Shown one piece after another: positions 327-38,170 of a stretch of DNA of 64,000 bases. The translations under genes and the position numbers were made by a program. How positions within the stretch are numbered: the first letter of the stretch is position 1; each line of letters opens with the position of its first letter. The notes under the pieces are model-generated. The model ran no database searches. It was not told where the DNA came from and saw nothing but the letters and a program-made list of their open reading frames with translations. Location: NCBI GenBank assembly GCA_964036665.1, contig OZ038532.1, forward strand, positions 15,518,537 to 15,582,536, in the 5' to 3' direction. The stretch is from Gordius sp. MW1. Taxonomy: Eukaryota > Nematomorpha > Gordioida > Gordea > Gordiidae.

Positions 327-345
327 TAAGCCAATTTGAGAATCC

Positions 346-3779: not shown

Positions 3780-4468
3780 TATTATCCTCGATTGACTTCC
3801 GAAAAGAGGTTTTAAGCTGCGAGAACTATCATTTTGACAAAAGACAACGTTTTATTGTTGCGATTAGTTTGTTGTATCGCAACGTGAGTGCTTAATTTTT
3901 CAAAAATGCACTATGCGATCATGATTTTAAAGTAATAGTTTTCTGATTCTGATAAATTTTTACTTTTTATCATCGAAACCACGTCTGAAAACTACAACTT
4001 TCATCGGATGCATACGGTTGAAAGAAAAATATGTGAAAAATTTTGAGGCAAAAATATTTATTTTTTTCGATTCTATGTGAAAGAGCATGAAAAAATATAT
4101 AAAAGTAAGCCAATTTGAGAATCCTATTATCCTCGATTGACTTCCGAAAAGAGGTTTTAAGCTGCGAGAACTATCATTTTGACAAAAGACAACGTTTTAT
4201 TGTTGCGATTAGTTTGTTGTATCGCAGCGTGATGCTTAATTTTTGAAAATGGCTCTATGCGATCATGATTTCAAAGTAATAGTTTGCAGATTCTGATAAA
4301 TTTTTCCTTGGGATCATAGAAACGACGTCTGAAAACGACAACTTTCATCGGATGAATACGTTTCAAAGAAAAATATGTGAAAAATTTTAAGGTAAAAATA
4401 TTTATTTTTTTCAATTCTATGTGAAAGAGCATGAAAAAATATATAAAAGTAAGCCAATTTGAGAATCC
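3780..4468 (+). repeat. Two-unit block with GAATTC boundary and GCAGCG variant
   Basis: The unit at 3780 is joined by GAATTC (an EcoRI site, where most boundaries read GAATCC) and carries CTGAAAACTACAAC. The next unit (4125) has GCAGCGTG, TTTGCAGATTC, TTTTTCCTTGGG and AACGACGTCTG. The same pair recurs at 5486-6174 and 13391-14079, and in altered form at 20240-20919. On the - strand it recurs at 22378-23000, at the inversion junction. It is a useful tracer of descent. Confidence 0.85.
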
Positions 4469-5154
4469 TATTATCCTCGATTGACTTCCGAAAAGAGGTT
4501 TTAAGCTGTGAGAACTATCATTTTGACAAAAGACAACGTTTTATTGTTGCGATTAGTTTGTTGTATCGCAACGTGATGCTTAATTTTTGAAAATGGCTCT
4601 ATGCGATCATGATTTCAAAGTAATAGTTTTCAGATTCTGATAAATTTTTACTTGGGATCATAGAAACCACGTCTAAAAACGACAACTCTCATCGGATGAA
4701 TACGGTTCAAAGAAAAATATGTGGGAAATTTTGAGGTAAAAATATTTATTTTTTTCAATTCTATGTGAAAGAGCATGAAAAAATATATAAAAGTAAGCCA
4801 ATTTGAGAATCCTATTATCCTCGATTGACTTCCGAAAAGGGGTTTTAAGCTGCGAGAACTATCATTTTGACAAAAGACAACGTTTTATTGTTGCGATTAG
4901 TTTGTTGTATCGCAACGTGATGCTTAATTTTTGAAAATGGCTCTATGCGATCATGATTTCAAAGTAATAGTTTTCAGATTCTGATAAATTTTTACTTGGG
5001 ATCATAGAAACCACGTCTGAAAACGACAACTCTCATCGGATGAATACGGTTCAAAGAAATATGTGGGAAATTTTGAGGTAAAAATATTTATTTTTTTCAA
5101 TTCTATGTGAAAGAGCATGAAAAAATATATAAAAGTAAGCCAATTTGAGAATCC

Positions 5155-11100: not shown

Positions 11101-13056
11101 TGCTTAATTTTTCAAAAATGCACTATGCGATCATGATTTCAAAGTAATAGTTTTCAGATTCTGATAAATTTTTACTTGGGATCATAGAAACCACGTCTGA
11201 AAACGACAACTCTCATCGGATGAATACGGTTCAAAGAAAAATATGTGGGAAATTTTGAGGTAAAAATATTTATTTTTTTCAATTCTATGTGAAAGAGCAT
11301 GAAAAAATATATAAAATTAAGCCAATTTGAGAATCCTATTATCATCGATTGACTTCCGAAAAGAGGTTTTAAGCTGCGAGAACTATCATTTTGACAAAAG
11401 ACAACGTTTTATTGTTGCGATTAGTTTGTTGTATCGCAACGTGAATGCTTAATTTTTCAAAAATGCACTATGCGATCATGATTTTAAAGTAGTTTTCTGA
11501 TTCTGATAAATTTTTTACTTGGGATCATAAAAACCACGTCTGAAAACGACAACTTTCATCGGATGAATGAATACGGTTCAAAGAAAAATATGTGAAAAAT
11601 TTTAAGGTAAAAATATTTATTTTTTTCAAATCTATGTGAAAGAGCATGAAAAAATATATAAAAGTAAGCCAATTTGAGAATCCTATTATCCTCGATTGAC
11701 TTCCGAAAAGAGGTTTTAAGCTGCGAGAACTATCATTTTTACAAAAGACAACGTTTTATTGTTGCGATTAGTTTGTTGTATCGCAACGTGAGTGCTTAAT
11801 TTTTCAAAAATGCACTATGCGATCATGATTTCAAAGTAATAGTTTTCAGATTCTGATAAATTTTTACTTGGGATCATAGAAACCACGTCTGTAAACGACA
11901 ACTCTCATCGGATGAATACGGTTCAAAGAAAAATATGTGGGAAATTTTGAGGTAAAAATATTTATTTTTTTCAATTCTATGTGAAAGAGCATGAAAAAAT
12001 ATATAAAAGTAAGCCAATTTGAGAATCCTATTATCATCGATTGACTTCCGAAAAGAGGTTTTAAGCTGCGAGAACTATCATTTTGACAAAAGACAACGTT
12101 TTATTGTTGCGATTAGTTTGTTGTATCGCAACGTGATGCTTAATTTTTGAAAATGGCTCTATGCGATCATGATTTCAAAGTAATAGTTTTCAGATTCTGA
12201 TAAATTTTTACTTGGGATCATAGAAACCACGTCTGAAAACGACAACTCTCATCGGATGAATACGGTTCAAAGAAAAATATGTGGGAAGTTTTGAGGTAAA
12301 AATATTTATTTTTTTCAATTCTATGTGAAAGAGCATGAAAAAATATATAAAAGTAAGCCAATTTGAGAATCCTATTATCCTCGATTGACTTCCGAAAAGG
12401 GGTTTTAAGCTGCGAGAACTATCATTTTGACAAAAGACAACGTTTTATTGTTGCGATTAGTTTGTTGTATCGCAACGTGAGTGCTTAATTTTTCAAAAAT
12501 GCACTATGCGATCATGATTTTAAAGTAATAGTTTTCTGATTCTGATAAATTTTTACTTTTTATCATCGAAACCACGTCTTAAAACGACAACTTTCATCGG
12601 ATGCATACGGTTGAAAGAAAAATATGTGAAAAATTTTGAGGTAAAAATATTTATTTTTTTCGATTCTATGTGAAAGAGCATGAAAAAATATATAAAAGTA
12701 AGCCAATTTGAGAATCCTATTATCCTCGATTGATTTCCGAAAAGAGGTTTTAAGCTGCGACTATCATTTTGACAAAAGACAACGTTTTATTGTTGCGATT
12801 AGTTTGTTGTATCGCAACGTGATGCTTAATTTTTGAAAATGGCTCTATGCGATCATGATTTCAAAGTAATAGTTTTCAGATTCTGATAAATTTTTACTTG
12901 GGATCATAGAAACCACGTCTGAAAACGACAACTCTCATCGGATGAATACGGTTCAAAGAAATATGTGGGAAATTTTGAGGTAAAAATATTTATTTTTTTC
13001 AATTCTATGTGAAAGAGCATGAAAAAATATATAAAATTAAGCCAATTTGAGAATCC
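5155..13056 (+). repeat. Higher-order repeat, copy U1 (23 units, 7902 bp)
   Basis: Starts at the unit with TATTATCATCG and the 10-bp deletion. Ordered markers: the GAATTC unit (5486), GCAGCG unit (5831), T3 units (6520, 6865), the TGTATAAAAG unit (in 6865-7209), the AAGTAAGTTTTC unit (7210), TTTGATGTATC (7897), TTCTAAGTG units (8241, 9272), ATTTTTTACTTGGG (9615, 11337), and the CAAAGAAATATGTGGG unit (12718). The same order recurs from 13057. Relative to the next copy, U1 has three extra units in the 7.5-9.3 kb stretch, where units alternate between AAAAATAGTT and CACGTATG variants. Confidence 0.85.
5200..5240 (+). other. 10-bp-deletion marker, site 1 (5220/5221)
   Basis: ACAAC is joined directly to TGCGATT, missing GTTTTATTGT. 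The unit also has GTGAGTGATTAA and a 3-bp loss (ACTATTTTGAC). The same deletion occurs at 13125/13126, 19974/19975, 23247/23248 (reverse) and 54838/54839 (reverse, with C to G), each linked to the GATTAATT variant, so the five are related by descent. By joining reading frames it also creates the longest pseudo-ORFs in the window. Confidence 0.9.
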
Positions 13057-16000
13057 TATTATCATCGATTGACTTCCGAAAAGAGGTTTTAAGCTGCGAG
13101 AACTATCATTTTGACAAAAGACAACTGCGATTAGTTTGTTGTATCGCAACGTGAGTGATTAATTTTTCAAAAATGCACTATGCGATCATGATTTTAAAGT
13201 AATAGTTTTCTGATTCTGATAAATTTTTACTTTTTATCATCGAAACCACGTCTGAAAACGACAACTTTCATCGGATGCATACGGTTGAAAGAAAAATATG
13301 TGAAAAATTTTGAGGTAAAAATATTTATTTTTTCGATTCTATGTGAAAGAGCATGAAAAAATATATAAAAGTAAGCCAATTTGAGAATTCTATTATCCTC
13401 GATTGACTTCCGAAAAGAGGTTTTAAGCTGCGAGAACTATCATTTTGACAAAAGACAACGTTTTATTGTTGCGATTAGTTTGTCGTATCGCAACGTGAGT
13501 GCTTAATTTTTCAAAAATGCACTATGCGATCATGATTTTAAAGTAATAGTTTTCTGATTCTGATAAATTTTTACTTTTTATCATCGAAACCACGTCTGAA
13601 AACTACAACTTTCATCGGATGCATACGGTTGAAAGAAAAATATGTGAAAAATTTTGAGGCAAAAATATTTATTTTTTTCGATTCTATGTGAAAGAGCATG
13701 AAAAAATATATAAAAGTAAGCCAATTTGAGAATCCTATTATCCTCGATTGACTTCCGAAAAGAGGTTTTAAGCTGCGAGAACTATCATTTTGACAAAAGA
13801 CAACGTTTTATTGTTGCGATTAGTTTGTTGTATCGCAGCGTGATGCTTAATTTTTGAAAATGGCTCTATGCGATCATGATTTCAAAGTAATAGTTTGCAG
13901 ATTCTGATAAATTTTTCCTTGGGATCATAGAAACGACGTCTGAAAACGACAACTTTCATCGGATGAATACGTTTCAAAGAAAAATATGTGAAAAATTTTA
14001 AGGTAAAAATATTTATTTTTTTCAATTCTATGTGAAAGAGCATGAAAAAATATATAAAAGTAAGCCAATTTGAGAATCCTATTATCCTCGATTGACTTCC
14101 GAAAAGAGGTTTTAAGCTGCGAGAACTATCATTTTGACAAAAGACAACGTTTTATTGTTGCGATTAGTTTGTTGTATCGCAACGTGAGTGCTTAATTTTT
14201 CAAAAATGCACTATGCGATCATGATTTTAAAGTAATAGTTTTCTGATTCTGATAAATTTTTACTTTTTATCATCGAAACCACGTCTGAAAACGACAACTT
14301 TCATCGGATGAATACGGTTCAAAGAAAAATATGTGAAAAATATTAAGGTAAAAATATTTATTTTTTTCAATTCTATGTGAAAGAGCATGAAAAAATATAT
14401 AAAAGTAAGCCAATTTGAGAATCCTATTATCCTCGATTGACTTCCGAAAAGGGGTTTTAAGCTGCGAGAACTATCATTTTGACAAAAGACAACGTTTTAT
14501 TGTTGCGATTAGTTTGTTGTATCGCAACGTGAGTGTTTAATTTTTCAAAAATGCACTATGCGATCATGATTTCAAAATAACATTTCTCTGATTCTGATAA
14601 ATTTTTACTTGGGATCATAGAAACCACGTCTGAAAACGACAACTTTCATCGGATGCATACGGTTGAAAGAAAAATATGTGAAAAATTTTGAGGTAAAAAT
14701 ATTTATTTTTTTCGATTCTATGTGAAAGAGCATGAAAAAATATATAAAAGTAAGCCAATTTGAGAATCCTATTATCCTCGATTGACTTCCGAAAAGGGGT
14801 TTTAAGCTGCGAGAACTATCATTTTGACAAAAGACAACGTTTTATTGTTGCGATTAGTTTGTTGTATCGCAACGTGAGTGTTTAATTTTTCAAAAATGCA
14901 CTATGCGATCATGATTTCAAAATAACATTTCTCTGATTCTGATAAATTTTTACTTGGGATCATAGAAACCACGTCTGAAAACGACAACTTTCATCGGATG
15001 AATACGGTTCAAAGAAAAATATGTGAAAATTTTTGAGGTAAAAATATTTATTTTTTTCAATTCTATGTGTAAGAGCATGAAAAAATGTATAAAAGTAAGC
15101 CAATTTGAGAATCCTATTATCCTCGATTGACTTCCGAAAAGAGGTTTTAAGCTGCGAGAACTATCATTTTGACAAAAGACAACGTTTTATTGTTGCGATT
15201 AGTTTGTTGTATCGCAACGTGAGTGCTTAATTTTTCAAAAATGCACTATGCGATCATGATTTTAAAGTAAGTTTTCTGATTCTGATAAATTTTTACTTTT
15301 TATCATCGAAACCACGTCTTAAAACGACAACTTTCATCGGATGCATACGGTTGAAAGAAAAATATGTGAAAAATTTTGAGGTAAAAATATTTATTTTTTC
15401 GATTCTATGTAAAAGAGCATGAAAAAATATATAAAAGTAAGCCAATTTGAGAATCCTATTATCATCGATTGACTTCCGAAAAGAGGTTTTAAGCTGCGAG
15501 AACTATCATTTTGACAAAAGACAACGTTTTATTGTTGCGATTAGTTTGATGTATCGCAACGTGATGCTTAATTTTTGAAAATGGCTCTATGCGATCATGA
15601 TTTTAAAGTAATAGTTTTCTGATTCTGATAAATTTTTACTTGGGATCATAGAAACCACGTCTGAAAACGACAACTTTCATCGGATGCATACGGTTGAAAG
15701 AAAAATATGTGAAAAATTTTGAGGTAAAAACATTTATTTTTTTCGATTCTATGTGAAAGAGCATGAAAAAATATATAAAAGTAAGCCAATTTGAGAATCC
15801 TATTATCCTCGATTGACTTCCGAAAAGAGGTTTTAAGCTGCGAGAACTATCATTTTGACAAAAGACAACGTTTTATTGTTGCGATTAGTTTGTTGTATCG
15901 CAACGTGAGTGCTTAATTTTTCAAAAATGCACTATGCGATCATGATTTTAAAGTAATAGTTTTCTGATTCTGATAAATTTTTACTTTTTATCATCGAAAC

Positions 16001-19000
16001 CACGTCTGAAAACGACAACTTTCATCGGATGCATACGGTTGAAAGAAAAATATGTGAAAAATTTTGAGGTAAAAATAGTTATTTTTTTCGATTCTATGTG
16101 AAAGAGCATGAAAAAATATATAAAAGTAAGCCAATTTGAGAATCCTATTATCCTCGATTGACTTCCGAAAAGAGGTTTTAAGCTGCGAGAACTATCATTT
16201 TGACAAAAGACAACGTTTTATTGTTGCGATTAGTTTGTTGTATCGCAACGTGATGCTTAATTTTTGAAAATGGCTCTATGCGATCATGATTTCAAAGTAA
16301 TAGTTTCAGATTCTGATAAATTTTTACTTGGGATCATAGAAACCACGTATGAAAACGACAACTTTCATCGGATGCATACGGTTGAAAGAAAAATATGTGA
16401 AAAATTTTGAGGTAAAAATATTTATTTTTTTCGATTCTAAGTGAAAGAGCATGAAAAAATATATAAAAGTAAGCCAATTTGAGAATCCTATTATCCTCGA
16501 TTGACTTCCGAAAAGAGGTTTTAAGCTGCGAGAACTATCATTTTGACAAAAGACAACGTTTTATTGTTGCGATTAGTTTGTTGTATCGCAACGTGAGTGC
16601 TTAATTTTTCAAAAATGCACTATGCGATCATGATTTTAAAGTAATAGTTTTCTGATTCTGATAAATTTTTTACTTGGGATCATAAAAACCACGTCTGAAA
16701 ACGACAACTTTCATCGGATGAATACGGTTCAAAGAAAAATATGTGAAAAATTTTAAGGTAAAAATATTTATTTTTTTCAATTCTATGTGAAAGAGCATGA
16801 AAAAATATATAAAAGTAAGCCAATTTGAGAATCCTATTATCCTCGATTGACTTCCGAAAAGAGGTTTTAAGCTGCGAGAACTATCATTTTTACAAAAGAC
16901 AACGTTTTATTGTTGCGATTAGTTTGTTGTATCGCAACGTGAGTGCTTAATTTTTCAAAAATGCACTATGCGATCATGATTTCAAAGTAATAGTTTGCAG
17001 ATTCTGATAAATTTTTACTTGGGATCATAGAAACCACGTCTGAAAACGACAACTTTCATCGGATGAATACGGTTGAAAGAAAAATATGTGAAAAATTTTG
17101 AGGTAAAAATATTTATTTTTTTCGATTCTATGTGAAAGAGCATAAAAAATCCTATTATCCTCGATTGACTTCCGAAAAGAGGTTTTAAGCTGCGAGAACT
17201 ATCATTTTGACAAAAGACAACGTTTTATTGTTGCGATTAGTTTGTTGTATCGCAACGTGAGTGCTTAATTTTTCAAAAATGCACTATGCGATCATGATTT
17301 TAAAGTAATAGTTTTCTGATTCTGATAAATTTTTACTTTTTATCATCGAAACCACGTCTGAAAACGACAACTTTCATCGGATGAATACGGTTCAAAGAAA
17401 AATATGTGAAAAATTTTAAGGTAAAAATATTTATTTTTTTCAATTCTATGTGAAAGAGCATGAAAATATATATAAAAGTAAGCCAATTTGAGAATCTTAT
17501 TATCCTCGACTGACTTCCGAAAAGAGGTTTTAAGCTGCGAGAACTATCATTTTGACAAAAGACAACGTTTTATTGTTGCGATTAGTTTGTTGTATCGCAA
17601 CGTGAGTGCTTAATTTTTCAAAAATGCACTATGCGATCATGATTTCAAAGTAATAGTTTGCAGAATCTGATAAATTTTTACTTGGGATCATAGAAACCAC
17701 GTCTGAAAACGACAACTTTCATCGGATGAATACGGTTCAAAGAAAAATATGTGAAAAATTTTGAGGTAAAAATATTTATTTTTTTCAATTCTATGTGAAA
17801 GAGCATAAAAAAATATATAAAAGTAAGCCAATTTGAGAATCCTATTATCCTCGATTGACTTCCGAAAAGAGGTTTTAAGCTGCGAGAACTATCATTTTTA
17901 CAAAAGACAACGTTTTATTGTTGCGATTAGTTTGTTGTATCGCAACGTGAGTGCTTAATTTTTCAAAAATGCACTATGCGATCATGATTTCAAAGTAATA
18001 GTTTTCAGATTCTGATACATTTTTACTTGGGATCATAGAAACCACGTCTGAAAACGACAACTCTCATCGGATGAATACGGTTCAAAGAAAAATATGTGGG
18101 AAATTTTGAGGTAAAAATATTTATTTTTTTCAATTCTATGTGAAAGAGCATGAAAAAATATATAAAAGTAAGCCAATTTGAGAATCCTATTATCATCGAT
18201 TGACTTCCGAAAAGAGGTTTTAAGCTGCGAGAACTATCATTTTGACAAAAGACAACGTTTTATTGTTGCGATTAGTTTGTTGTATCGCAACGTGAATGCT
18301 TAATTTTTCAAAAATGCACTATGCGATCATGATTTTAAAGTAGTTTTCTGATTCTGATAAATTTTTTACTTGGGATCATAAAAACCACGTCTGAACGACA
18401 ACTTTCATCGGATGAATGAATACGGTTCAAAGAAAAATATGTGAAAAATTTTAAGGTAAAAATATTTATTTTTTTCAAATCTATGTGAAAGAGCATGAAA
18501 AAATATATAAAAGTAAGCCAATTTGAGAATCCTATTATCCTCGATTGACTTCCGAAAAGAGGTTTTAAGCTGCGAGAACTATCATTTTTACAAAAGACAA
18601 CGTTTTATTGTTGCGATTAGTTTGTTGTATCGCAACGTGAGTGCTTAATTTTTCAAAAATGCACTATGCGATCATGATTTCAAAGTAATAGTTTTCAGAT
18701 TCTGATAAATTTTTACTTGGGATCATAGAAACCACGTCTGAAAACGACAACTCTCATCGGATGAATACGGTTCAAAGAAAAATATGTGGGAAATTTTGAG
18801 GTAAAAATATTTATTTTTTTCAATTCTATGTGAAAGAGCATGAAAAAATATATAAAAGTAAGCCAATTTGAGAATCCTATTATCATCGATTGACTTCCGA
18901 AAAGAGGTTTTAAGCTGCGAGAACTATCATTTTGACAAAAGACAACGTTTTATTGTTGCGATTAGTTTGTTGTATCGCAACGTGATGCTTAATTTTTGAA

Positions 19001-19905
19001 AATGGCTCTATGCGATCATTATTTCAAAGTAATAGTTTTCAGATTCTGATAAATTTTTACTTGGGATCATAGAAACCACGTCTGAAAACGACAACTCTCA
19101 TCGGATGAATACGGTTAAAAGAAAAATATGTGGGAAATTTTGAGGTAAAAATATTTATTTTTTTCAATTCTATGTGAAAGAGCATGAAAAAATATATAAA
19201 AGTAAGCCAATTTGAGAATCCTATTATCCTCGATTGACTTCCGAAAAGGGGTTTTAAGCTGCGAGAACTATCATTTTGACAAAAGACAACGTTTTATTGT
19301 TGCGATTAGTTTGTTGTATCGCAACGTGAGTGCTTAATTTTTCAAAAATGCACTATGCGATCATGATTTTAAAGTAATAGTTTTCTGATTCTGATAAATT
19401 TTTACTTTTTATCATCGAAACCACGTCTTAAAACGACAACTTTCATCGGATGCATACGGTTGAAAGAAAAATATGTGAAAAATTTTGAGGTAAAAATATT
19501 TATTTTTTTCGATTCTATGTGAAAGAGCATGAAAAAATATATAAAAGTAAGCCAATTTGAGAATCCTATTATCCTCGATTGATTTCCGAAAAGAGGTTTT
19601 AAGCTGCGACTATCATTTTGACAAAAGACAACGTTTTATTGTTGCGATTAGTTTGTTGTATCGCAACGTGATGCTTAATTTTTGAAAATGGCTCTATGCG
19701 ATCATGATTTCAAAGTAATAGTTTTCAGATTCTGATAAATTTTTACTTGGGATCATAGAAACCACGTCTGAAAACGACAACTCTCATCGGATGAATACGG
19801 TTCAAAGAAATATGTGGGAAATTTTGAGGTAAAAATATTTATTTTTTTCAATTCTATGTGAAAGAGCATGAAAAAATATATAAAAGTAAGCCAATTTGAG
19901 AATCC
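13057..19905 (+). repeat. Higher-order repeat, copy U2 (20 units, 6849 bp)
   Basis: Matches U1 in marker order with few substitutions. The offset to U1 is 7902-7905 bp up to the unit at 15115, then shifts to 6874 from 16146 and to 6847-6851 after the 27-bp deletion at 17146. The shift shows that three units present in U1 are absent here (or were added in U1), most simply by unequal exchange between near-identical neighbours. The exact exchange point within 15.4-16.2 kb cannot be fixed by eye because several units there are almost the same. Confidence 0.85.
17140..17156 (+). other. 27-bp deletion in one unit (318 bp long)
   Basis: GAGCATAAAAAATCCTATT at this point lacks 27 bp relative to its counterpart at 10296 (unit 9961), removing the TATA-like and CCAAT motifs. 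The join lies in an A run, so the end points cannot be fixed exactly. The deletion is unique to U2 and therefore younger than the U1-U2 duplication. Confidence 0.85.
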
Positions 19906-20919
19906 TATTATCATCGATTGACTTCCGAAAAGAGGTTTTAAGCTGCGAGAACTATCATTTTGACAAAAGACAACTGCGATTAGTTTGTTGTATCGCAACG
20001 TGAGTGATTAATTTTTCAAAAATGCACTATGCGATCATGATTTTAAAGCAATAGTTTTCTGGTTCTGATAAATTTTTACTTTTTATCATCGAAACCACGT
20101 CTGAAAACGACAACTTTCATCGGATGCATACGGTTGAAAGAAAAATATGTGAAAAATTTTGAGGTAAAAATATTTATTTTTTCGATTCTATGTGAAAGAG
20201 CATGAAAAAATATATAAAAGTAAGCCAATTTGAGAATTCTATTATCCTCGATTGACTTCCGAAAAGAGGTTTTAAGCTGCGAGAACTATCATTTTGACAA
20301 AAGACAACGTTTTATTGTTGCGATTAGTTTGTTGTATCGCAACGTGAGTGCTTAATTTTTCAAAAATGCACTATGCGATCATGATTTTAAAGTAATAGTT
20401 TTCTGATTCTGATAAATTTTTACTTTTTATCATCGAAACCACGTCTGAAAACGACAACTTTCATCGGATAAAGAAAAATATGTGAAAAATTTTGAGGTAA
20501 AAATATTTATTTTTTTTCGATTCTATGTGAAAGAGCATGAAAAAATATATAAAAGTAAGCCAATTTGAGAATCCTATTATCCTCGATTGACTTCCGAAAA
20601 GAGGTTTTAAGCTGCGAGAACTATCATTTTGACAAAAGACAACGTTTTATTGTTGCGATTAGTTTGTTGTATCGCAGCGTGATGCTTAATTTTTGAAAAT
20701 GGCTCTATGCGATCATGATTTCAAAGTAATAGTTTGCAGATTCTGATAAATTTTTACTTGGGATCATAGAAACCACGTCTGAAAACGACAACTCTCATCG
20801 GATGAATACGGTTCAAAGAAAAATATGTGAAAAATTTTGAGGTAAAAATATTTATTTTTTTCAATTCTATATGAAAGAGCATGAAAAAAATATATAAAAG
20901 TAAGCCAATTTGAGAATCC
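19906..20919 (+). repeat. Higher-order repeat, truncated copy U3 (first three units)
   Basis: Repeats the first three units of U1 and U2: 10-bp-deletion unit (19906), GAATTC unit (20240) and GCAGCG unit (20575). The GAATTC unit has lost 11 bp at about 20470 (CGGAT joined to AAAGAAAA). After 20920 the order no longer follows U1/U2: the units at 20920 and 21264 resemble those at 19222 and 19567 instead (CGTCTTAA, then TTGATTTCCG and CAAAGAAATATGTGGG). Confidence 0.75.
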
Positions 20920-22377
20920 TATTATCCTCGATTGACTTCCGAAAAGAGGTTTTAAGCTGCGAGAACTATCATTTTGACAAAAGACAACGTTTTATTGTTG
21001 CGATCAGTTTGTTGTATCGCAACGTGAGTGCTTAATTTTTCAAAAATGCACTATGCGATCATGATTTAAAAGTAATAGTTTTCTGATTCTGATAAATTTT
21101 TACTTTTTATCATCGAAACCACGTCTTAATACGAGAACTTTCATCGGATGCATACGGTTGAAAGAAAAATATGTGAAAAATTTTGAGGTAAAAATATTTA
21201 TTTTTTCGATTCTATGTGAAAGAGCATGAAAAAATATATAAAAGTAAGAGAATTTGAGAATCCTATTATCCTCGATTGATTTCCGAAAAGAGGTTTTAAG
21301 CTGCGAGAACTATCATTTTGACAAAAGACAACGTTTTATTGTTGCGATTAGTTTGTTGTATCGCAACGTGATGCTTAATTTTTGAAAATGGCTCTATGTG
21401 ATCATGATTTCAAAGTAATAGTTTTCAGATTCTGATAAATTTTTACTTGGGATCATAGAAACCACGTCTGAAAACGACAACTCTCATCGGATGAATACGG
21501 TTCAAAGAAATATGTGGGAAATTTTGAGGTAAAAATATTTATTTTTTTCAATTCTATGTGAAAGAGCATGAAAAAATATATAAAAGTAAGCCAATTTGAG
21601 AATCCTTTTATCCTCGATTGACTTCCGAAAAGGGGTTTTAAGCTGCGAGAACTATCATTTTGACAAAAGACAACGTTTTATTGTTGCGATTAGTTTGTTG
21701 TATCGCAACGTGATGCTTAATTTTTGAAAATGGCTCTATGCGATCATGATTTCAAAGTAATAGTTTTCAGATTCTGATAAATTTTTACTTTGGATCATAG
21801 AAACCACGTCTGAAAACGACAACTCTCATCGGATCTATACGGTTCAAAGAAAAATATGTAGGAAATTTTGAGGTAAAAATATTTATTTTTTTCAATTCTA
21901 TGTGAAAGAGCATGAAAAAATATATAAAAGTAAGCCAATTTGAGAATCCTATTATCCTCGATTGACTTCCGAAAAAGGGTTTTAAGCTGCGAGAACTATC
22001 ATTTTGACAAAAGACAACGTTTTATTGTTGCGATTAGTTTGTTGTATCGCAACGTGAGTGCTTAATTTTTCAAAAATGCACTATGCGATCATGATTTTAA
22101 AGTAATAGTTTTCTGATTCTGATAAATTTTTACTTTTTATGATCGAAACCACGTCTTAAAACGACAACTTTCATCGGATGCATACGGTTGAAAGAAAAAT
22201 ATGTGAAAAATTTTGAGGTAAAAATATTTATTTTTTTCGATTCTATGTGAAAGAGCATGAAAAAATATATAAAAGTAAGCCAATTTGAGAATCCTATTAT
22301 CCTCGATTGACTTCCGAAAAGAGGTTTTAAGCTGCGAGAACTATCATTTTGACTAAAGACAACGTTTTATTGTTGCG
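20920..22377 (+). repeat. Left-arm units next to the strand switch, rich in private changes
   Basis: Units at 20920, 21264, 21606, 21950 and the partial at 22295. They carry many changes not seen in other copies: GCGATCAGTTTG, TTTAAAAGTAAT, CTTAATACGAGAAC, GTAAGAGAATTT, CTATGTGATC, AATCCTTTTATCC, CGGATCTATAC, ATGTAGGAAA, GAAAAAGGGT, TATGATCG and GACTAAAGAC. The series ends at 22377, 83 bp into the last unit. Such divergence is usual where homogenising exchange is weak, for example at an array edge. Confidence 0.75.
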
Positions 22378-22386
22378 TAAATATTT
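22370..22386. other. Strand-switch (inversion) junction of the satellite
   Basis: Forward sequence runs to TGTTGCG at 22371-22377. From TAAATATTTTTACC at 22378 the sequence is the reverse complement of the unit. The expected forward continuation would be ATTAGTTTG; the expected reverse neighbour to the left of TAAATATT would be a run of A. I see no inserted bases and no obvious microhomology of 2 bp or more. The left partial keeps 83 bp of its unit and the right partial keeps 280 bp. The two arms are not a mirror palindrome around this point, so it is not a simple fold-back of one template. Confidence 0.95.
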
Positions 22387-23316
22387 TTACCTTAAAATTT
22401 TTCACATATTTTTCTTTGAACCGTATTCATCCGATGAAAGTTGTCGTTTTCAGACGTCGTTTCTATGATCCCAAGTAAAAATTTATCAGAATCTGCAAAC
22501 TATTACTTTGAAATCATGATCGCATAGAGCCATTTTCAAAAATTAAGCATCACGCTGCGATACAACAAACTAATCGCAACAATAAAACGTTGTCTTTTGT
22601 CAAAATGATAGTTCTCGCAGCTTAAAACCTCTTTTCGGAAGTCAATCGAGGATAATAGGATTCTCAAATTGGCTTACTTTTATATATTTTTTCATGTTCT
22701 TTCACATAGAATCGAAAAAAATAAATATTTTTACCTCAAAATTTTTCACATATTTTTCTTTCAACCGTATGCATCCGATGAATGTTGTTGTTTTCAGACG
22801 TGGTTTCGATGATAAAAAGTAAAAATTTATCAGAATCAGAAAACTATTACTTCAAAATCGTGATCGCATAGTGCATTTTTGAAAAATTAAGCACTCACGT
22901 TGTCATACAACAAACTCATCGCAACAATAAAACGTTGTCTTTTGTCAAAATGATAGTTTTCGCAGCTTAAAACCTCTTTTCGGGTCAATCGAGGATAATA
23001 GAATTCTCAAATTGGCTTCATGCTCTTTCACATAGAATCGAAAAAATAAATATTTTTACCTCAAAATTTTGACATATTTTTCTTTCAACCGTATGCATCC
23101 GATGAAAGTTGTCGTTTTCAGACGTGGTTTCGATGATAAAAAGTAAAATTTTATCAGAATCAGAAAACTATTACTTTAAAATCATGGTCGCATAGTGCAT
23201 TTTTGAAAAATTAATCACTCACGTTGCGATACAACAAACTAATCGCAGTTGTCTTTTGTCAAAATGATAGTTCTCGCAGCTTAAAACCTCTTTTCGGAAG
23301 TCAATCGAGGATAATA
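22378..23316 (-). repeat. Inverted counterpart of the first three units of the left-arm higher-order repeat
   Basis: Read on the - strand from 23316 to 22378 the order is: the 10-bp-deletion unit with GTGATTAATT, the GAATTC-joined T1 unit, and the GCAGCG unit with CAGACGACGTCTG-type flank and AAGGTAAAA. This is the order at 5155-6174, 13057-14079 and 19906-20919. The copy is heavily mutated: TTCATGTTCT, GATGAATGTTGTTG, CAAAATCGTG, TTGTCATACAAC, ACTCATCGC, a 2-3 base loss in TTTTCGGGTCAAT, a loss of about 17 bp in GGCTTCATGCTC, TTTTGACAT and CATGGTCGC. The relation proves that both arms derive from one array. Confidence 0.85.
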
Positions 23317-26300
23317 GGATTCTCAAATTGGCTTACTTTTATATATTTTTTCATGCTCTTTCACATAGAATCGAAAAAAATAAATATTTTTACCTCAAAA
23401 TTTTTCACATATTTTTCTTTCAACCGTATGCATCCGATGAAAGTTGTCGTTTTCAGACGTGGTTTCTATGATCCCAAGTAAAAATTTATCAGAATCTGAA
23501 ACTATTACTTTGAAATCATGATCGCATAGAGCCATTTTCAAAAATTAAGCATCACGTTGCGATACAACAAACTAATCGCAACAATAAAACGTTGTCTTTT
23601 GTCAAAATGATAGTTCTCGCAGCTTAAAACCTCTTTTCGGAAGTCAATCGAGGATAATAGGATTCTCAAATTGGCTTACTTTTATATATTTTTTCATGCT
23701 CTTTCACATAGAATCAAAAAAAATAACTATTTTTACCTCAAAATTTTTCACATATTTTTCTTTCAACTGTATGCATCCGATGAAAGTTGTCGTTTTCAGA
23801 CGTGGTTTTGATGATATAAAGTAAAAATTTATCAGAATCAGAAAACTATTACTTTAAAATCATGATCGCATAGTGAATTTTTGAAAAATTAAGCACTCAC
23901 GTTGCGATACAACAAACTAATCGCAACAATAAAACGTTGTCTTTTGTCAAAATGATAGTTCTCGCAGCTTAAAACCCCTTTTCGGAAGTCAATCGAGGAT
24001 AATAGGATTCTCAAATTGGCTTACTTTTATATATTTTTTCATGCTCTTTCACATAGAATTGAAAAAAATAAATATTTTTACCTCAAAATTTCCCACATAT
24101 TTTTCTTTGAACCGTATTCATCCGATGAGAGTTGTCGTTTTCAGACGTGGTTTCTATGATCCCAAGTAAAAATTTATCAGAATCTGAAAACTATTACTTT
24201 GAAATCATGATCGCATAGAGCCATTTTCAAAAATTAAGCATCACGTTGCGATACAACAAACTAATCGCAACAATAAAACGTTGTCTTTTGTCAAAATGAT
24301 AGTTCTCGCAGCTTAAAACCTCTTTTCGGAAGTCAATCGAGGATAATAGGATTCTCAAATTGGCTTACTTTTATATATTTTTTAATGCTCTTTCCCATAG
24401 AATCGAAAAAAATAAATATTTTTACCTCAAAATTTTTCACATATTTTTCTTTCAACCGTATGCATCCGATGAAAGTTGTCGTTTTAAGACGTGGTTTCGA
24501 TGATAAAAAGTAAAAATTTATCAGAATCAGAAAACTATTACTTTAAAATCATGATCGCATAGTGCATTTTTGAAAAATTAAGCACTCACGTTGCGATACA
24601 ACAAACTAATCGCAACAATAAAACGTTGTCTTTTGTCAAAATGATAGTTCTCGCAGCTTAAAACCTCTTTTCGGAAGTCAATCGAGGATAATAGGATTCT
24701 CAAATTGGCTTACTTTTATACATTTTTTCATGCTCTTACACATAGAATTGAAAAAAATAAATATTTTTACCTCAAAAATTTTCACATATTTTTCTTTGAA
24801 CCGTATTCATCCGATGAAAGTTGTCGTTTTCAGACGTGGTTTCTATGATCCCAAGTAAAAATTTATCAGAATCAGAGAAATGTTACTTTAAAATCATGAT
24901 CGCATAGTGCATTTTTGAAAAATTAAACACTCACGTTGCGATACAACAAACTAATCGCAACAATAAAACGTTGTCTTTTGTCAAAATGATAGTTCTCGCA
25001 GCTTAAAACCCCTTTTCGGAAGTCAATCGAGGATAAAAGGATTCTCAAATTGGCTTACTTTTATATATTTTTTCATGCTCTTTCACATAGAATTGAAAAA
25101 AATAAATATTTTTACCTCAAAATTTCCCACATATTTTTCTTTGAACCGTATTCATCCGATGAGAGTTGTCGTTTTCAGACGTGGTTTCTATGATCCCAAG
25201 TAAAAATTTATCAGACCCTGAAAACTATTACTTTGAAATCATGATCGCATAGAGCCATTTTCAAAAATTAAGCATCACGTTGCGATACAACAAACTAATC
25301 GCAACAATAAAACGTTGTCTTTTGTCAAAATGATAGTTCTCGCAGCTTAAAACCTCTTTTCGGAAGTCAATTGAGGATAATAGGATTCTCAAATTGGCTA
25401 ACTTTTATATATTTTTTCATGCTCTTTCACATAGAATCGAAAAAAATAAATATTTTTACCTAAATTTTTCACATATTTTTCTTTCAACCGTATGCATCCG
25501 ATGAAAGTTGTCGTTTTCAGACGTGGTTTCTATGATCCCAAGTAAAAATTTATCAGAATCAGAAAACTATTACTTTAAAATCATGATCGCATAGTGCATT
25601 TTTGAAAAATTAAGCACTCACGTTGCGATACAACAAACTAATCGCAACAATAAAACGTTGTCTTTTGTCAAAATGATAGTTCTCGCACCTTAAAACCTCT
25701 TTTCGGAAGTCAATCGAGGATAATAGGATTCTCAAATTGGCTTACTTTTATATATTTTTTCATGCTCTTTCACATAGAATCGAAAAAAATAAATATTTTT
25801 ACCTCAAAATTTTTCACATATTTTCTTTCAACCGTATGCATACGATGAAAGTTGTCGTTTTAAGACGTGGTTTCGATGATAAAAAGTAAAAATTTATCAG
25901 AATCAGAAAACTATTACTTTAAAATCATGATCGCATAGTGCATTTTTGAAAAATTAAGCACTCACGTTGCGATACAACAAACTAATCGCAACAATAAAAC
26001 GTTGTCTTTTGTCAAAATGATAGTTCTCGCATCTTAAAACCTCTTTTCGGAAGTCAATCGAGGATAATAGGATTCTCAAATTGGCTTACTTTTATATATT
26101 TTTTCATGCTCTTTCACATAGAATCGAAAAAAATAAATATTTTTACCTCAAAATTTTTCACATATTTATCTTTCAACCGTATGCATCCGATGAAAGTTGT
26201 CGTTTTAAGACGTGGTTTCGATGATAAAAAGTAAAAATTTATCAGAATCAGAGAAATGTTACTTTGAAATCATGATCGCATAGTGCATTTTTGAAAAATT

Positions 26301-26753
26301 AAGCACTCACGTTGCGATACAACAAACTAATCGCAACAATAAAACGTTGTCTTTTGTCAAAATGATAGTTATCGCAGCTTAAAACCCCTTTTCGGAAGTC
26401 AATCGAGGATAATAGGATTCTCAAATTGGCTTATTTTTATATATTATGCTCTTTCACATAGAATTAAAAAAAATAAATATTTTTACCTCAAAATTTCCCA
26501 CATATTTTTCTTTGAACCGTATAGATCCGATGAGAGTTGTCGTTTTCAGACGTGGTTTCTATGATCCCAAGTAAAAATTTATCAGAATCTGAAAACTATT
26601 ACTTTGAAATCATGATCGCATAGAGCCATTTTCAAAAATTAAGCATCACGTTGCGATACAACAAACTAATCGCAACAATAAAACGTTGTCTTTTGTCAAA
26701 ATGATAGTTCTCGCAGCTTAAAACCTCTTTTCGGAAGTCAATCGAGGATAATA
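23317..26753 (-). repeat. 10-unit higher-order repeat, copy A (3437 bp)
   Basis: Ten units of 339-345 bp. Marker order on the + strand: GAATCAAAAAAAATAAC (23711), AATGCTCTTTCCC (24384), TATACATTTTTTC (24714), GGATAAAAGG (25031), CAGACCCTG (25213), TCGCACCTT (25685), CGTATGCATACG (25829), CATATTTATC (26161), and a short TATATTATGCTC unit (26415-26753). Unit classes alternate among T1, T2, T3-like and mosaics. Tandem copy B follows immediately at an exact offset of 3437 bp. Confidence 0.92.
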
Positions 26754-29700
26754 GGATTCTCAAATTGGCTTACTTTTATATATTTTTTCATGCTCTTTCA
26801 CATAGAATCGAAAAAAATAAATATTTTTACCTCAAAATTTTTCACATATTTTTCTTTCAACCGTATGCATCCGATGAAAGTTGTCGTTTTCAGACGTGGT
26901 TTCTATGATCCCAAGTAAAAATTTATCAGAATCTGAAACTATTACTTTGAAATCATGATCGCATAGAGCCATTTTCAAAAATTAAGCATCACGTTGCGAT
27001 ACAACAAACTAATCGCAACAATAAAACGTTGTCTTTTGTCAAAATGATAGTTCTCGCAGCTTAAAACCTCTTTTCGGAAGTCAATCGAGGATAATAGGAT
27101 TCTCAAATTGGCTTACTTTTATATATTTTTTCATGCTCTTTCACATAGAATCAAAAAAAATAACTATTTTTACCTCAAAATTTTTCACATATTTTTCTTT
27201 CAACTGTATGCATCCGATGAAAGTTGTCGTTTTCAGACGTGGTTTTGATGATATAAAGTAAAAATTTATCAGAATCAGAAAACTATTACTTTAAAATCAT
27301 GATCGCATAGTGAATTTTTGAAAAATTAAGCACTCACGTTGCGATACAACAAACTAATCGCAACAATAAAACGTTGTCTTTTGTCAAAATGATAGTTCTC
27401 GCAGCTTAAAACCCCTTTTCGGAAGTCAATCGAGGATAATAGGATTCTCAAATTGGCTTACTTTTATATATTTTTTCATGCTCTTTCACATAGAATTGAA
27501 AAAAATAAATATTTTTACCTCAAAATTTCCCACATATTTTTCTTTGAACCGTATTCATCCGATGAGAGTTGTCGTTTTCAGACGTGGTTTCTATGATCCC
27601 AAGTAAAAATTTATCAGAATCTGAAAACTATTACTTTGAAATCATGATCGCATAGAGCCATTTTCAAAAATTAAGCATCACGTTGCGATACAACAAACTA
27701 ATCGCAACAATAAAACGTTGTCTTTTGTCAAAATGATAGTTCTCGCAGCTTAAAACCTCTTTTCGGAAGTCAATCGAGGATAATAGGATTCTCAAATTGG
27801 CTTACTTTTATATATTTTTTAATGCTCTTTCCCATAGAATCGAAAAAAATAAATATTTTTACCTCAAAATTTTTCACATATTTTTCTTTCAACCGTATGC
27901 ATCCGATGAAAGTTGTCGTTTTAAGACGTGGTTTCGATGATAAAAAGTAAAAATTTATCAGAATCAGAAAACTATTACTTTAAAATCATGATCGCATAGT
28001 GCATTTTTGAAAAATTAAGCACTCACGTTGCGATACAACAAACTAATCGCAACAATAAAACGTTGTCTTTTGTCAAAATGATAGTTCTCGCAGCTTAAAA
28101 CCTCTTTTCGGAAGTCAATCGAGGATAATAGGATTCTCAAATTGGCTTACTTTTATACATTTTTTCATGCTCTTACACATAGAATTGAAAAAAATAAATA
28201 TTTTTACCTCAAAAATTTTCACATATTTTTCTTTGAACCGTATTCATCCGATGAAAGTTGTCGTTTTCAGACGTGGTTTCTATGATCCCAAGTAAAAATT
28301 TATCAGAATCAGAGAAATGTTACTTTAAAATCATGATCGCATAGTGCATTTTTGAAAAATTAAACACTCACGTTGCGATACAACAAACTAATCGCAACAA
28401 TAAAACGTTGTCTTTTGTCAAAATGATAGTTCTCGCAGCTTAAAACCCCTTTTCGGAAGTCAATCGAGGATAAAAGGATTCTCAAATTGGCTTACTTTTA
28501 TATATTTTTTCATGCTCTTTCACATAGAATTGAAAAAAATAAATATTTTTACCTCAAAATTTCCCACATATTTTTCTTTGAACCGTATTCATCCGATGAG
28601 AGTTGTCGTTTTCAGACGTGGTTTCTATGATCCCAAGTAAAAATTTATCAGACCCTGAAAACTATTACTTTGAAATCATGATCGCATAGAGCCATTTTCA
28701 AAAATTAAGCATCACGTTGCGATACAACAAACTAATCGCAACAATAAAACGTTGTCTTTTGTCAAAATGATAGTTCTCGCAGCTTAAAACCTCTTTTCGG
28801 AAGTCAATTGAGGATAATAGGATTCTCAAATTGGCTAACTTTTATATATTTTTTCATGCTCTTTCACATAGAATCGAAAAAAATAAATATTTTTACCTAA
28901 ATTTTTCACATATTTTTCTTTCAACCGTATGCATCCGATGAAAGTTGTCGTTTTCAGACGTGGTTTCTATGATCCCAAGTAAAAATTTATCAGAATCAGA
29001 AAACTATTACTTTAAAATCATGATCGCATAGTGCATTTTTGAAAAATTAAGCACTCACGTTGCGATACAACAAACTAATCGCAACAATAAAACGTTGTCT
29101 TTTGTCAAAATGATAGTTCTCGCACCTTAAAACCTCTTTTCGGAAGTCAATCGAGGATAATAGGATTCTCAAATTGGCTTACTTTTATATATTTTTTCAT
29201 GCTCTTTCACATAGAATCGAAAAAAATAAATATTTTTACCTCAAAATTTTTCACATATTTTCTTTCAACCGTATGCATACGATGAAAGTTGTCGTTTTAA
29301 GACGTGGTTTCGATGATAAAAAGTAAAAATTTATCAGAATCAGAAAACTATTACTTTAAAATCATGATCGCATAGTGCATTTTTGAAAAATTAAGCACTC
29401 ACGTTGCGATACAACAAACTAATCGCAACAATAAAACGTTGTCTTTTGTCAAAATGATAGTTCTCGCAGCTTAAAACCTCTTTTCGGAAGTCAATCGAGG
29501 ATAATAGGATTCTCAAATTGGCTTACTTTTATATATTTTTTCATGCTCTTTCACATAGAATCGAAAAAAATAAATATTTTTACCTCAAAATTTTTCACAT
29601 ATTTATCTTTCAACCGTATGCATCCGATGAAAGTTGTCGTTTTAAGACGTGGTTTCGATGATAAAAAGTAAAAATTTATCAGAATCAGAGAAATGTTACT

Positions 29701-30190
29701 TTGAAATCATGATCGCATAGTGCATTTTTGAAAAATTAAGCACTCACGTTGCGATACAACAAACTAATCGCAACAATAAAACGTTGTCTTTTGTCAAAAT
29801 GATAGTTATCGCAGCTTAAAACCCCTTTTCGGAAGTCAATCGAGGATAATAGGATTCTCAAATTGGCTTATTTTTATATATTATGCTCTTTCACATAGAA
29901 TTAAAAAAAATAAATATTTTTACCTCAAAATTTCCCACATATTTTTCTTTGAACCGTATAGATCCGATGAGAGTTGTCGTTTTCAGACGTGGTTTCTATG
30001 ATCCCAAGTAAAAATTTATCAGAATCTGAAAACTATTACTTTGAAATCATGATCGCATAGAGCCATTTTCAAAAATTAAGCATCACGTTGCGATACAACA
30101 AACTAATCGCAACAATAAAACGTTGTCTTTTGTCAAAATGATAGTTCTCGCAGCTTAAAACCTCTTTTCGGAAGTCAATCGAGGATAATA
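26754..30190 (-). repeat. 10-unit higher-order repeat, copy B (3437 bp)
   Basis: Repeats copy A marker for marker at an offset of exactly 3437 bp (27148, 27821, 28151, 29598 and the TATATTATGCTC unit at 29852-30190). The only differences I noticed by eye are at 26031 (TCGCATCTT) against 29468 (TCGCAGCTT), and one base in an A/T run near 25818 against 29255. Homology with copy A extends about 30 bp past 30190 and stops where A has TTTTTTCATG and B has TTTTTTTATG. On the other side, near 23247, it stops at the 10-bp-deletion site. Such identity implies a very recent duplication. Confidence 0.92.
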
Positions 30191-33100
30191 GGATTCTCAA
30201 ATTGGCTTACTTTTATATATTTTTTTATGCTCTTTCACATAGAATCGAAAAAAATAAATATTTTTACCTCAAAATTTTTCACATATTTTTCTTTGAACCG
30301 TATTCATCCGATGAGAGTTGTCGTTTTCAGACGTGGTTTCTATGATCCCAAGTAAAAATTTATCAGAATCTGAAAACTATTACTTTGAAATCATGATCGC
30401 ATAGAGCCATTTTCAAAAATTAAGCATCACGTTGCGATACAACAAACTAATCGCAACAATAAAACGTTGTCTTTTGTCAAAATGATAGTTCTCGCAGCTT
30501 AAAACCTCTTTTCTGAAGTCAATCGAGGATAATAGGATTCTCAAATTGGCTTACTTTTATATATTTTTTTATGCTCTTTCACATAGAATCGAAAAAAATA
30601 AATATTTTTACCTCAAAATTTACATATTTTTCTTTCAACCGTATGCATCCGATGAAAGTTGTCGTTTTCAGACGTGGTTTCTATGATCCCAAGTAAAAAT
30701 TTATCAGAATCAGAAAACTATTACTTTAAAATCATGATCGCATAGTGCATTTTTGAAAAATTAAGCACTCACGTTGCGATACAACAAACTAATCGCAACA
30801 ATAAAACGTTGTCTTTTGTCAAAATGATAGTTCTCGCAGCTTAAAACCTCTTTTCGGAAGTCAATCGAGGATAATAGGATTCTCAAATTGGCTTACTTTT
30901 ATATATTTTTTCATGCTCTTTCACATGGAATCGAAAAAAATAAATATTTTTACATCAAAATTTTTCACATATTTTTCTTTCAACCGTATGCATCCGATGA
31001 AAGTTGTCGTTTTAAGACGTGGTTTCGATGATAAAAAGTAAAAATTTATCAGAATCAGAAAACTATTACTTTAAAATCATGATCGCATAGTGCATTTTTG
31101 AAAAATTAAGCACTCACGTTGCGATACAACAAACTAATCGCAACAATAAAACGTTGTCTTTTGTCAAAATGATAGTTCTCGCAGCTTAAAACCCCTTTTC
31201 GGAAGTCAATCGAGGATAATAGGATTCTCAAATTGGCTTACTTTTATATATTTTTTCATGCTCTTTCACATAGAATTGAAAAAAATAAATATTTTTACCT
31301 CAAAATTTCCCACTTTTTTTCTTTGAACCGTATAGATCCGATGAGAGTTGTCGTTTTCAGACGTGGTTTCTGTGATCCCAAGTAAAAATTTATCAGAATC
31401 TGTAAACTATTACTTTGAAATCATGATCGCATAGAGCCATTTTCAAAAATTAAGCATCACGTTGCGATACAACAAACTAATCGCTACAATAAAACGTTGT
31501 CTTTTGTCAAAATGATAGTTGTCGCAGCTTAAAACCTCTTTTCGGAAGTCAATCGAGGATAATAGGATTCTGAAATTGGCTTACTTTTATATATTTTTTC
31601 ATGCTCTTTCACATAGAATCGAAAAAAATAAATATTTTTACCTCAAAAATTTTCACATATTTTTCTTTGAACCGTATTCATCCGATGAGAGTTGACGTTT
31701 TCAGACGTGGTTTCTATGATCCCAAGTAAAAATTTATCAGAATCAGAAAACTATTACTTTAAAATCATGATCGCATAGTGCATTTTTGAAAAATTAAGCA
31801 CTCACGTTGCGATACAACAAACTAATTGCAACAATAAAACGTTGTCTTTTGTCAAAATGATAGTTCTCGCAGCTTAAAACCTCTTTTCGGAAGTCAATCG
31901 AGGATAATAGGATTCTCAAATTGGCTTACTTTTATATATTTTTTCATGCTCTTTCACATAGAATCGAAAAAAATAAATATTTTTACCTCAAAATTTTTTA
32001 CATATTTTTCTTTCAACCGTATGCATCCGATAAAAGTTGTCGTTTTAAGACGTGGTTTCGATGATAAAAAGTAAAAATTTATCAGAATCAGAAAACTATT
32101 ACTTTAAAATCATGATCGCATAGTGCATTTTTGAAAAATTAAGCACTCACGTTGCGATACAACAAACTAATCGCAACAATAAAACGTTGTCTTTTGTCAA
32201 AATGATAGTTCTCGCAGCTAACCTCTTTTCGGAAGTCAATCGAGGATAATAGGATTCTCAAATTGGCTTACTTTTATATATTTTTTCATGCTCTTTCACA
32301 TAGAATCGAAAAAAATAAATATTTTTACCTCAAAATTTTTCACATATTTTTCTTTCAACCGTATGCATCCGATGAAAGTTGTCGTTTTAAGACGTGGTTT
32401 CGATGATAAAAAGTAAAAATTTATCAGAATCAGAAAACTATTACTTTAAAATCATGATCGCATAGTGCATTTTTGAAAAATTAAGCACTCACGTTGCGAT
32501 ACAACAAACTAATTGCAATAAAACGTTGTCTTTTGTCAAAATGATAGTTCTCGCAGCTTAAAACCTCTTTTCGGAAGTCAATCGAGGATAATAGGATTCT
32601 CAAATTGGCTTACTTTTATATATTTTTTCATGCTCTTTCACATAGAATCGAAAAAAATAAATATTTTTACCTCAAAATTTTTCACATATTTTCTTTCAAC
32701 CGTATGCATCCGATGAAAGTTGTCGTTTTAAGACGTGGTTTCGATGATAAAAAGTAAAAATTTATCAGAATCAGAAAACTATTACTTTAAAATCATGATC
32801 GCATAGTGCATTTTTGAAAAATTAAGCACTCACGTTGCGATACAACAAACTAATCGCAACAATAAAACGTTGTCTTTTGTCAAAATGATAGTTCTCGCAG
32901 CTTAAAACCCCTTTTCGGAAGTCAATCGAGGATAATAGGATTCTCAAATTGGCTTACTTTTATATGTTTTTTCATGCTCTTTCACATAGAATTGAAAAAA
33001 AATAAATAATTTTACCTCAAAATTTCCCACATATTTTTCTTTGAACCGTATAGATACGATGATAGTTGTCGTTTTCAGACGTGGTTTCTATGATCCCAAG

Positions 33101-34652
33101 TAAAAATTTATCAGAATCTGAAAACTATTACTTTGAAATCATAATCGCATGGAGCCATTTTCAAAAATTAAGCATCACGTTGCGATACAACAAACTAATC
33201 GCAACAATAAAACGTTGTCTTTTGTCAAAATGATAGTTGTCGCAGCTTAAAACCTCTTTTCGGAAGTCAATCGAGGATAATAGGATTCTCAAATTGGCTT
33301 ACTTTTATATATTTTTTCATGCTCTTTCACATAGAATCGAAAAAAATAAATATTTTTACCTCAAAATTTTTCACATATTTTTCTTTGAACCGTATTCATC
33401 CGGTAAGAGTTGTCGTTTTCAGACGTGGTTTCTATGATCCCAAGTAAAAATTTATCAGAATCTGAAAACTATTACTTTGAAATCATGATCGCATAGAGCC
33501 ATTTTCAAAAATTAAGCATCACGTTGCGATACAACAAACTAATCGCAACAATAAAACGTTGTCTTTTGTCAAAATGATAGTTCTCGCAGCTTAAAACCTC
33601 TTTTCGGAAGTCAATCGAGGATAATAGGATTCTCAAATTGGCTTACTTTTATATATTTTTTTATGCTCTTTCACATAGAATCGAAAAAAATAAACATTTT
33701 TACCTCAAAATTTACATATTTTTCTTTCAACCGTATGCATCCGATGAAAGTTGTCGTTTTCAGACGTGGTTTCTATGATCCCAAGTAAAAATTTATCAGA
33801 ATCAGAAAACTATTACTTTAAAATCATGATCGCATAGTGCATTTTTGAAAAATTAAGCACTCACGTTGCGATACAACAAACTAATCGCAACAATAAAACG
33901 TTGTCTTTTGTCAAAATGATAGTTCTCGCAGCTTAAAACCTCTTTTCGGAAATCAATCGAGGATAATAGGATTCTCAAATTGGCTTACTTTTATATATTT
34001 TTTCATGCTCTTTCACATGGAATCGAAAAAAATAAATATTTTTACCTCAAAATTTTTCACATATTTATCTTTCAACCGTATGCATCCGATGAAAGTTGTC
34101 GTTTTAAGACGTGGTTTCGATGATAAAAAGTAAAAATTTATCAGAATCAGAGAAATGTTACTTTGAAATCATGATCGCATAGTGCATTTTTGAAAAATTA
34201 AGCACTCACGTTGCGATACAACAAACTAATCGCAACAATAAAACGTTGTCTTTTGTCAAAATGATAGTTATCGCAGCTTAAAACCCCTTTTCGGAAGTCA
34301 ATCGAGGATAATAGGATTCTCAAATTGGCTTACTTTTATATATTATGCTCTTTCACATAGAATTAAAAAAAATAAATATTTTTACCTCAAAATTTCCCAC
34401 ATATTTTTCTTTGAACCGTATAGATCCGATGAGAGTTGTCGTTTTCAGACGTGGTTTCTATGATCCCAAGTAAAAATTTATCAGAATCTGAAAACTATTA
34501 CTTTGAAATCATGATCGCATAGAGCCATTTTCAAAAATTAAGCATCACGTTGCGATACAACAAACTAATCGCAACAATAAAACGTTGTCTTTTGTCAAAA
34601 TGATAGTTCTCGCAGCTTAAAACCTCTTTTCGGAAGTCAATCGAGGATAATA
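30191..34652 (-). repeat. 13-unit higher-order repeat, copy 1 (4462 bp)
   Basis: Markers: TTTTTTTATGC units, TTCTGAAGTC (30511), TTTACATATT (about 30620), CCCACTTTTTTTC (about 31310), AATCGCTACAAT (31479), GTTGACGTTTTC (about 31690), GATAAAAGTTG (32029), TATATGTTTT (32962), GTCGCAGCTT (33239) and ATCCGGTAAG (33398). They recur at +4462 to +4469 in copy 2. The offset grows by 7 because copy 1 alone lost 3-4 bp at about 32217 (GCAGCTAACC) and 3 bp at about 32515 (ATTGCAATAAAACG). The relation starts upstream, between about 29.35 and 29.6 kb, and breaks near 33.70 kb. Confidence 0.85.
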
Positions 34653-37600: not shown

Positions 37601-38170
37601 TTTGAAATCATAATCGCATGGAGCCATTTTCAAAAATTAAGCATCACGTTGCGATACAACAAACTAATCGCAACAATAAAACGTTGTCTTTTGTCAAAAT
37701 GATAGTTGTCGCAGCTTAAAACCTCTTTTCGGAAGTCAATCGAGGATAATAGGATTCTCAAATTGGCTTACTTTTATATATTTTTTCATGCTCTTTCACA
37801 TAGAATCGAAAAAAATAAATATTTTTACCTCAAAATTTTTCACATATTTTTCTTTGAACCGTATTCATCCGGTAAGAGTTGTCGTTTTCAGACGTGGTTT
37901 CTATGATCCCAAGTAAAAATTTATCAGAATCTGAAAACTATTACTTTGAAATCATGATCGCATAGAGCCATTTTCAAAAATTAAGCATCACGTTGCGATA
38001 CAACAAACTAATCGCAACAATAAAACGTTGTCTTTTGTCAAAATGATAGTTCTCGCAGCTTAAAACCTCTTTTCGGAAGTCAATCGAGGATAATAGGATT
38101 CTCAAATTGGCTTACTTTTATATATTTTTTTATGCTCTTTCACATAGAATCGAAAAAAATAAACATTTTT
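34653..38170 (-). repeat. 13-unit higher-order repeat, copy 2 (incomplete)
   Basis: Follows copy 1 up to about 38170, where copy 1 has CCTCAAAATTTACAT (T1 with loss of several bases) and copy 2 has CCTAAAATTTTTTCAC. From there to 39.8 kb the units differ from copy 1: AATTCTCTTAC (38450), ACGTTTTTCGATG (38582), GATACATTAAAC with AAAATGTTG (38690), CAAAATATTTC, AACGTTATC, TTGTCTTAC, GTGGTGTC and GAATGGAAAA (39526). Confidence 0.8.
36854..36875 (-). other. Short gene-conversion-like patch (T2 sequence in a T1 unit)
   Basis: Five substitutions within 22 bp separate this copy (TTTCAGACG...TTTCTATGATCCCAAG) from its counterparts at about 32388, 40640 and 45112, which all read TTTAAGACG...TTTCGATGATAAAAAG. 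The flanking kilobases are almost identical in all four. The patch has the T2 state, while the markers on either side (GTATGCATCC to the left, CAGAATCAG to the right) remain T1. A conversion tract of 22 to about 60 bp is the simplest explanation; this is inference. Confidence 0.7.

Follow-up and report, generated by a model that had tools for sequence, protein, structure and literature searches.

The 64,000-nucleotide stretch of Gordius sp. MW1 DNA analysed here (hereafter the window; C6:15518537-15582536, where C6 marks positions on contig OZ038532.1) is, as resolved by Tandem Repeats Finder, a single tandem satellite array with a repeat unit of ~345 bp. Unit orientation was followed with an anchor, i.e. 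a sequence within the repeat unit matched with up to 4 errors allowed, and by matching one unit across a 314-kb piece read as a whole, which comprises the window with 190 kb of left and 60 kb of right flanking sequence. The N count is 0 in the window, in the 314-kb piece and in two further 10-kb stretches. The left flank, composed of ~345-bp units in what would be the original orientation, occupies window positions 1..22377 on the + strand, as seen with Tandem Repeats Finder, the anchor and the unit matches, and its array extends at least 190 kb beyond the window's left edge, interrupted twice there by non-satellite sequence. Between positions 22377 and 22378 (C6:15540913 and 15540914) the strand changes from + to -. 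This junction, referred to as J1, reads TTTATTGTTGCG followed by TAAATATTTTTACC (also written GTTGCG followed by TAAATATT), and it is located by Tandem Repeats Finder, whose first array stops exactly at 22377, by alignment, and by the anchor, whose 66 matches on the + strand lie between 6 and 22300 and whose 119 matches on the - strand lie between 22624 and 63770, so that the two orientations never interleave; the sign of the GC skew flips at the same place. No spacer, gap or transposon is present at J1, and its two sides have 0 bp of sequence in common. An earlier note on this DNA had described a clean strand switch at 22377 within one array, free of spacer or transposon, and the anchor counts, array end and GC skew bear this out.

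The change of orientation extends well beyond the window. Across the 314 kb, the unit was matched 603 times on the + strand and never on the - strand to the left of J1 (212 kb), and 298 times on the - strand and never on the + strand to its right (101.6 kb), so J1 parts long uniform arms and not short patches. The 211.8-Mb genome contains a single copy of the 32-mer that spans J1; reverse-strand and control matches number 0 each. The last unit of the left flank is broken (22300..22377, + strand; side A of breakpoint P, defined below) and ends in TTATTGTTGCG, where intact units continue with ATTAGTTTG. The earlier note had traced the first units right of J1 to a three-unit block lying 1.5-2.4 kb to the left, a derivation that fails on alignment: the block at 19845-20854 matches the first 1,000 bases beyond J1 at just 95.0% identity, and it is surpassed as a source by window positions 12996-14015 (+ strand, 96.2%), as well as by sequences 96-104 kb to the left that begin at C6:15441662 and 15445076 (both 99.2%) and at C6:15436872 (98.8%). 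The 12-bp deletion common to this block and the right side is not private to the block, as the + strand of the window has it at three places (5212, 13117 and, within the block, 19966). Two sequences had further been put forward as unique variants from which the junction could be amplified; AATCCTTTTATCC has 3 copies in the window and 22 in the 314 kb, and GGCTTCATGCTC is single within the window (23014) and present 5 times in the 314 kb, so that only the latter is unique, and only at the scale of the window.

The reciprocal junction and the probably inverted block

A simple inversion predicts that J1 has a partner at which the array returns from - to + and in which the other halves of the cut units are joined, and a second junction, J2, was searched for on this ground. 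The phase expected of it, with ACAACAAACT joined to TTTCNATTCTATG, was set down before J2 was seen. The pointer to J2 came from a query whose right half matched in the opposite orientation near C6:15708745-15709172. J2 lies outside the window, between C6:15708143 and 15708144 (would-be window positions 189607 and 189608), 167,230 bp to the right of J1, and reads GATACAACAAACT followed by TTCAATTCTATG. Its sides share 1 bp, a single T assignable to either of them, and the 31-mer that spans it has a single occurrence genome-wide. The phase of J2 agrees with the prediction within 5 bp on both sides, and two independent cut phases would fall this close by chance with a probability of ~(11/345)^2 = 0.001. 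The agreement is one of phase only, since the predicted pattern taken letter for letter had more T than J2 and would miss it.

The array therefore reads + along the contig, then - over 167 kb, then + again. J1 and J2 are reciprocal orientation switches that bound one block on the - strand (C6:15540914-15708143, 167,230 bp, of which 22378..64000 lies in the window), as read from unit matches over all of the 167 kb except 50,000 bp (C6:15642537-15672536 and C6:15682537-15702536), where further paired switches are possible. The earlier note had presented the switch as a lone event; it correctly saw one end and missed the reciprocal junction, which turns the observation into a balanced inversion. 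Its view that an orientation switch is informative about the history of the array holds, as does the precision of the breakpoint; both ends can be read to within a base. From these data we conclude that J1 is very probably one end of a 167,230-bp satellite block that was cut twice, flipped and rejoined by end joining.

An error in the assembly, i.e. a stretch of the array placed backwards by the assembler or a curator, is an improbable source of this pattern. Satellite arrays are prone to misassembly and the evidence here is the assembled sequence itself, but a flipped contig normally leaves N at both ends and loses no bases, whereas here N is absent and 3 + 5 bp are missing. A false overlap explains neither join, as J1 shares 0 bp and J2 only 1 bp, and a single chimeric read would create one junction, whereas two reciprocal junctions require two matching chimeras. 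For an analysis of assembled sequence, J2 reduces this concern but does not remove it.

Restoration of the two breakpoints

To describe the state before the inversion, the four sides of the junctions were labelled A (left flank), B (far end of the block), C (near end of the block) and D (right flank), where breakpoint P is the restored join of A to B and breakpoint Q the restored join of C to D. The first base of the block, on side C, falls inside a unit, 146 bp in phase from the left-hand cut. The cut points are complementary: A joined to B and C joined to D each rebuild one satellite unit with nothing inserted. Compared with unbroken units, the restored P is short of 3 bp (ATT) and the restored Q is short of 5 T, for a total of 8 bp; depending on where the ambiguous T at J2 is assigned, the losses are 3 + 5 or 4 + 4 bp.

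Unbroken paralogues in the same array served as a stand-in for uninverted relatives or the other haplotype. With 3 kb on each side, restored Q aligns end to end with C6:15604298-15598292 at 99.4% identity (27 mismatches in 6,000 bases), and with 700 bp on each side, restored P aligns with C6:15588799-15587396 at 99.1% (8 mismatches over ~1.4 kb); judged by these alignments, the two stretches are uninterrupted relatives of Q and P, respectively. As a control, phase-matched halves were taken from random places in the array, joined artificially, and scored by shared 25-mers, with the worse half counted. For Q, artificial joins did as well or better in 2/200, 4/199 and 6/189 cases at half-lengths of 700, 1500 and 3000, respectively, whereas for P the counts were 9/195, 75/194 and 68/191 at 700, 1500 and 3000 bp. 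These counts argue strongly for Q at all three half-lengths and for P only near the break, with weak support for P beyond ~700 bp. At a coarser scale, blocks of 12 units gave similarities of 0.397 (A-B) and 0.387 (C-D) for the restored neighbours and 0.388 (A-C) and 0.393 (B-D) for the present ones, all within the reference ranges of native adjacent (0.325-0.468) and distant blocks (0.331-0.428). Neither the restored nor the present order is favoured by these values, as native neighbours resemble each other scarcely more than blocks far apart do, and local structure in the array is slight at the 12-unit scale.

The restored sites also bear on whether J1 and J2 are two unrelated strand switches, such as fold-back or template-switch duplications made during repair, that face each other by chance. 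Such an origin, which we consider very improbable, would fit the finding that + strand sequences closely related to the first 1-2 kb beyond J1 persist, at 98.8-99.5%, about 100 kb further left, as expected if the right side were a duplicated inverted copy, and P has no long-range restored match. However, the cut phases of J2 both complement those of J1 within 5 bp, and had the block been copied, C and D need not match each other, but when joined they form one 6-kb piece with an unbroken copy at 99.4%. An inverted duplication from ~100 kb to the left is therefore ranked below the inversion, as the matches of successive tiles are scattered over several places, the phases at J2 fit an inversion, and the join of C to D restores a whole.

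Mechanism and relation to known rearrangements

Two double-strand breaks followed by non-homologous end joining leave near-blunt joins with losses of a few bp, whereas homologous exchange needs inverted copies and joins matching phases. The joins observed here are of the former kind, with 0 and 1 bp in common and a total loss of 8 bp, and the complementary cuts that characterize a balanced inversion are accompanied by little change in length (3 bp at P and 5 bp at Q). The balanced inversion may thus be pictured as a single-step event in which two double-strand breaks occurred in the array, a few bases would have been trimmed from the broken ends, and non-homologous end joining would have connected these ends in inverted order, such that the flanks stayed as they were and the middle was turned around. 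An origin through homologous exchange between inverted repeats is unlikely: the cuts do not lie at matching positions but 146 bp apart in phase, and the joins have only 0 and 1 bp in common. No inverted repeats able to cause the event occur among the units read outside the block, and as these are all in one orientation, the locus would be a clear example of breakage and rejoining as opposed to homologous exchange.

Inversions within satellite arrays have been described in other lineages. In primates, they occur in the alpha-satellite arrays of human centromere 1, orangutan chromosome 20 (3.2 Mb) and macaque chromosomes 5 and 10 (PMC11062924, PMC9549924), and, like the Gordius array, these contain a reversed satellite block between flanks of opposite orientation; the Gordius case differs in that its 345-bp repeat is unrelated, its block measures 167 kb, and its ends are defined at base level and could be set against uninterrupted relatives of the sites as they were before the event. 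In pea, CEN6 contains an inversion within array a2 of the satellite FabTR-10 (PMC10027222), so that, as here, part of one satellite array is inverted and the rest is uniform in orientation. The repeat and the host are different, and breakpoint sequences are absent from the accessible part of the pea account (PMC10027222). The satellites of Tribolium, which like those studied here form kilobase-long subarrays in opposite orientation, are reported in the available part of PMC13081366 to have macro-dyad symmetries with conserved inversion sites that recur thousands of times. It is extremely improbable that J1 is likewise a dyad junction maintained for some structural purpose. The arms around it are inverted copies able to pair (e.g. 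94.6% over 1,836 columns), but neither junction recurs, each being present in 1 copy in the genome when searched as exact k-mers, as compared to the thousands of copies reported for Tribolium madens (PMC13081366). Single-copy junctions fit one event, in contrast to the conserved and recurrent sites of Tribolium, and no recurrent conserved site of that type was found with the exact junction k-mers.

The balanced inversion is thus an ordinary rearrangement of a type already on record; within a literature search that was not exhaustive, what is unusual about it is that both of its ends can be read and have unbroken relatives. Because satellite arrays turn over fast, the structural events behind them can seldom be observed while both of their ends survive. 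In the present case, the unbroken copies of P and Q reveal the prior state and the number of bases lost, the inversion leaves two fixed landmarks in a repetitive array, and the two unique junction sequences allow easy typing of the inversion in populations. Q and its unbroken 6-kb relative are 0.45% apart, which is a loose upper bound on age if the duplication predates the inversion, a bound made unreliable by gene conversion. A function for the inversion is improbable. It should impede ordinary unequal exchange of the block with its flanks, and one could speculate, as an unlikely but not far-fetched outcome, that a young and still polymorphic inversion splits the array, with the block and flanks losing free exchange and beginning to evolve as separate sub-arrays.

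The satellite across the genome and along the contig

Counted genome-wide, one exact 50-mer from the unit has 9,796 occurrences on one strand and 16,493 on the other, 26,289 in total (with places known for the first listed matches only), and has 92 exact copies in the window as compared to 185 anchored units. These counts suggest, very roughly, a genome total of ~18 Mb for this satellite, and since the 50-mer is found on both strands, the rest of the genome probably contains additional switches or arrays that face opposite ways. As to a centromeric role, the array is a candidate, and what is known of it is its abundance. The window has no Rfam matches at gathering score.

Several stretches without satellite were observed along the contig. 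In the left arm, C6:15482383-15484102 holds a 1.7-kb insert with copies of one long direct repeat at both ends and GATGC on each side, and it resembles a short LTR element with a target-site duplication. A non-satellite stretch of 8.3 kb lies in the same arm at C6:15337618-15345954; its start has short words in common with the 1.7-kb insert, and no ORF of at least 100 aa, stop to stop, is listed in the piece that holds most of it. Inside the inverted block, C6:15678327-15682536 comprises at least 4.2 kb, and perhaps more, without satellite.

Within the window, the anchor was missed at 53557-54196 and 56942-57582, where the interval is 639-640 bp instead of ~690; both are units with a ~50-bp deletion and adjoin breaks in the tandem-repeat calls. 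In the right arm, at window positions 23378-46637, blocks recur at 99-100% identity with offsets of ~3.4, 8.3 and 12.7 kb, which are signs of recent multi-unit amplification.
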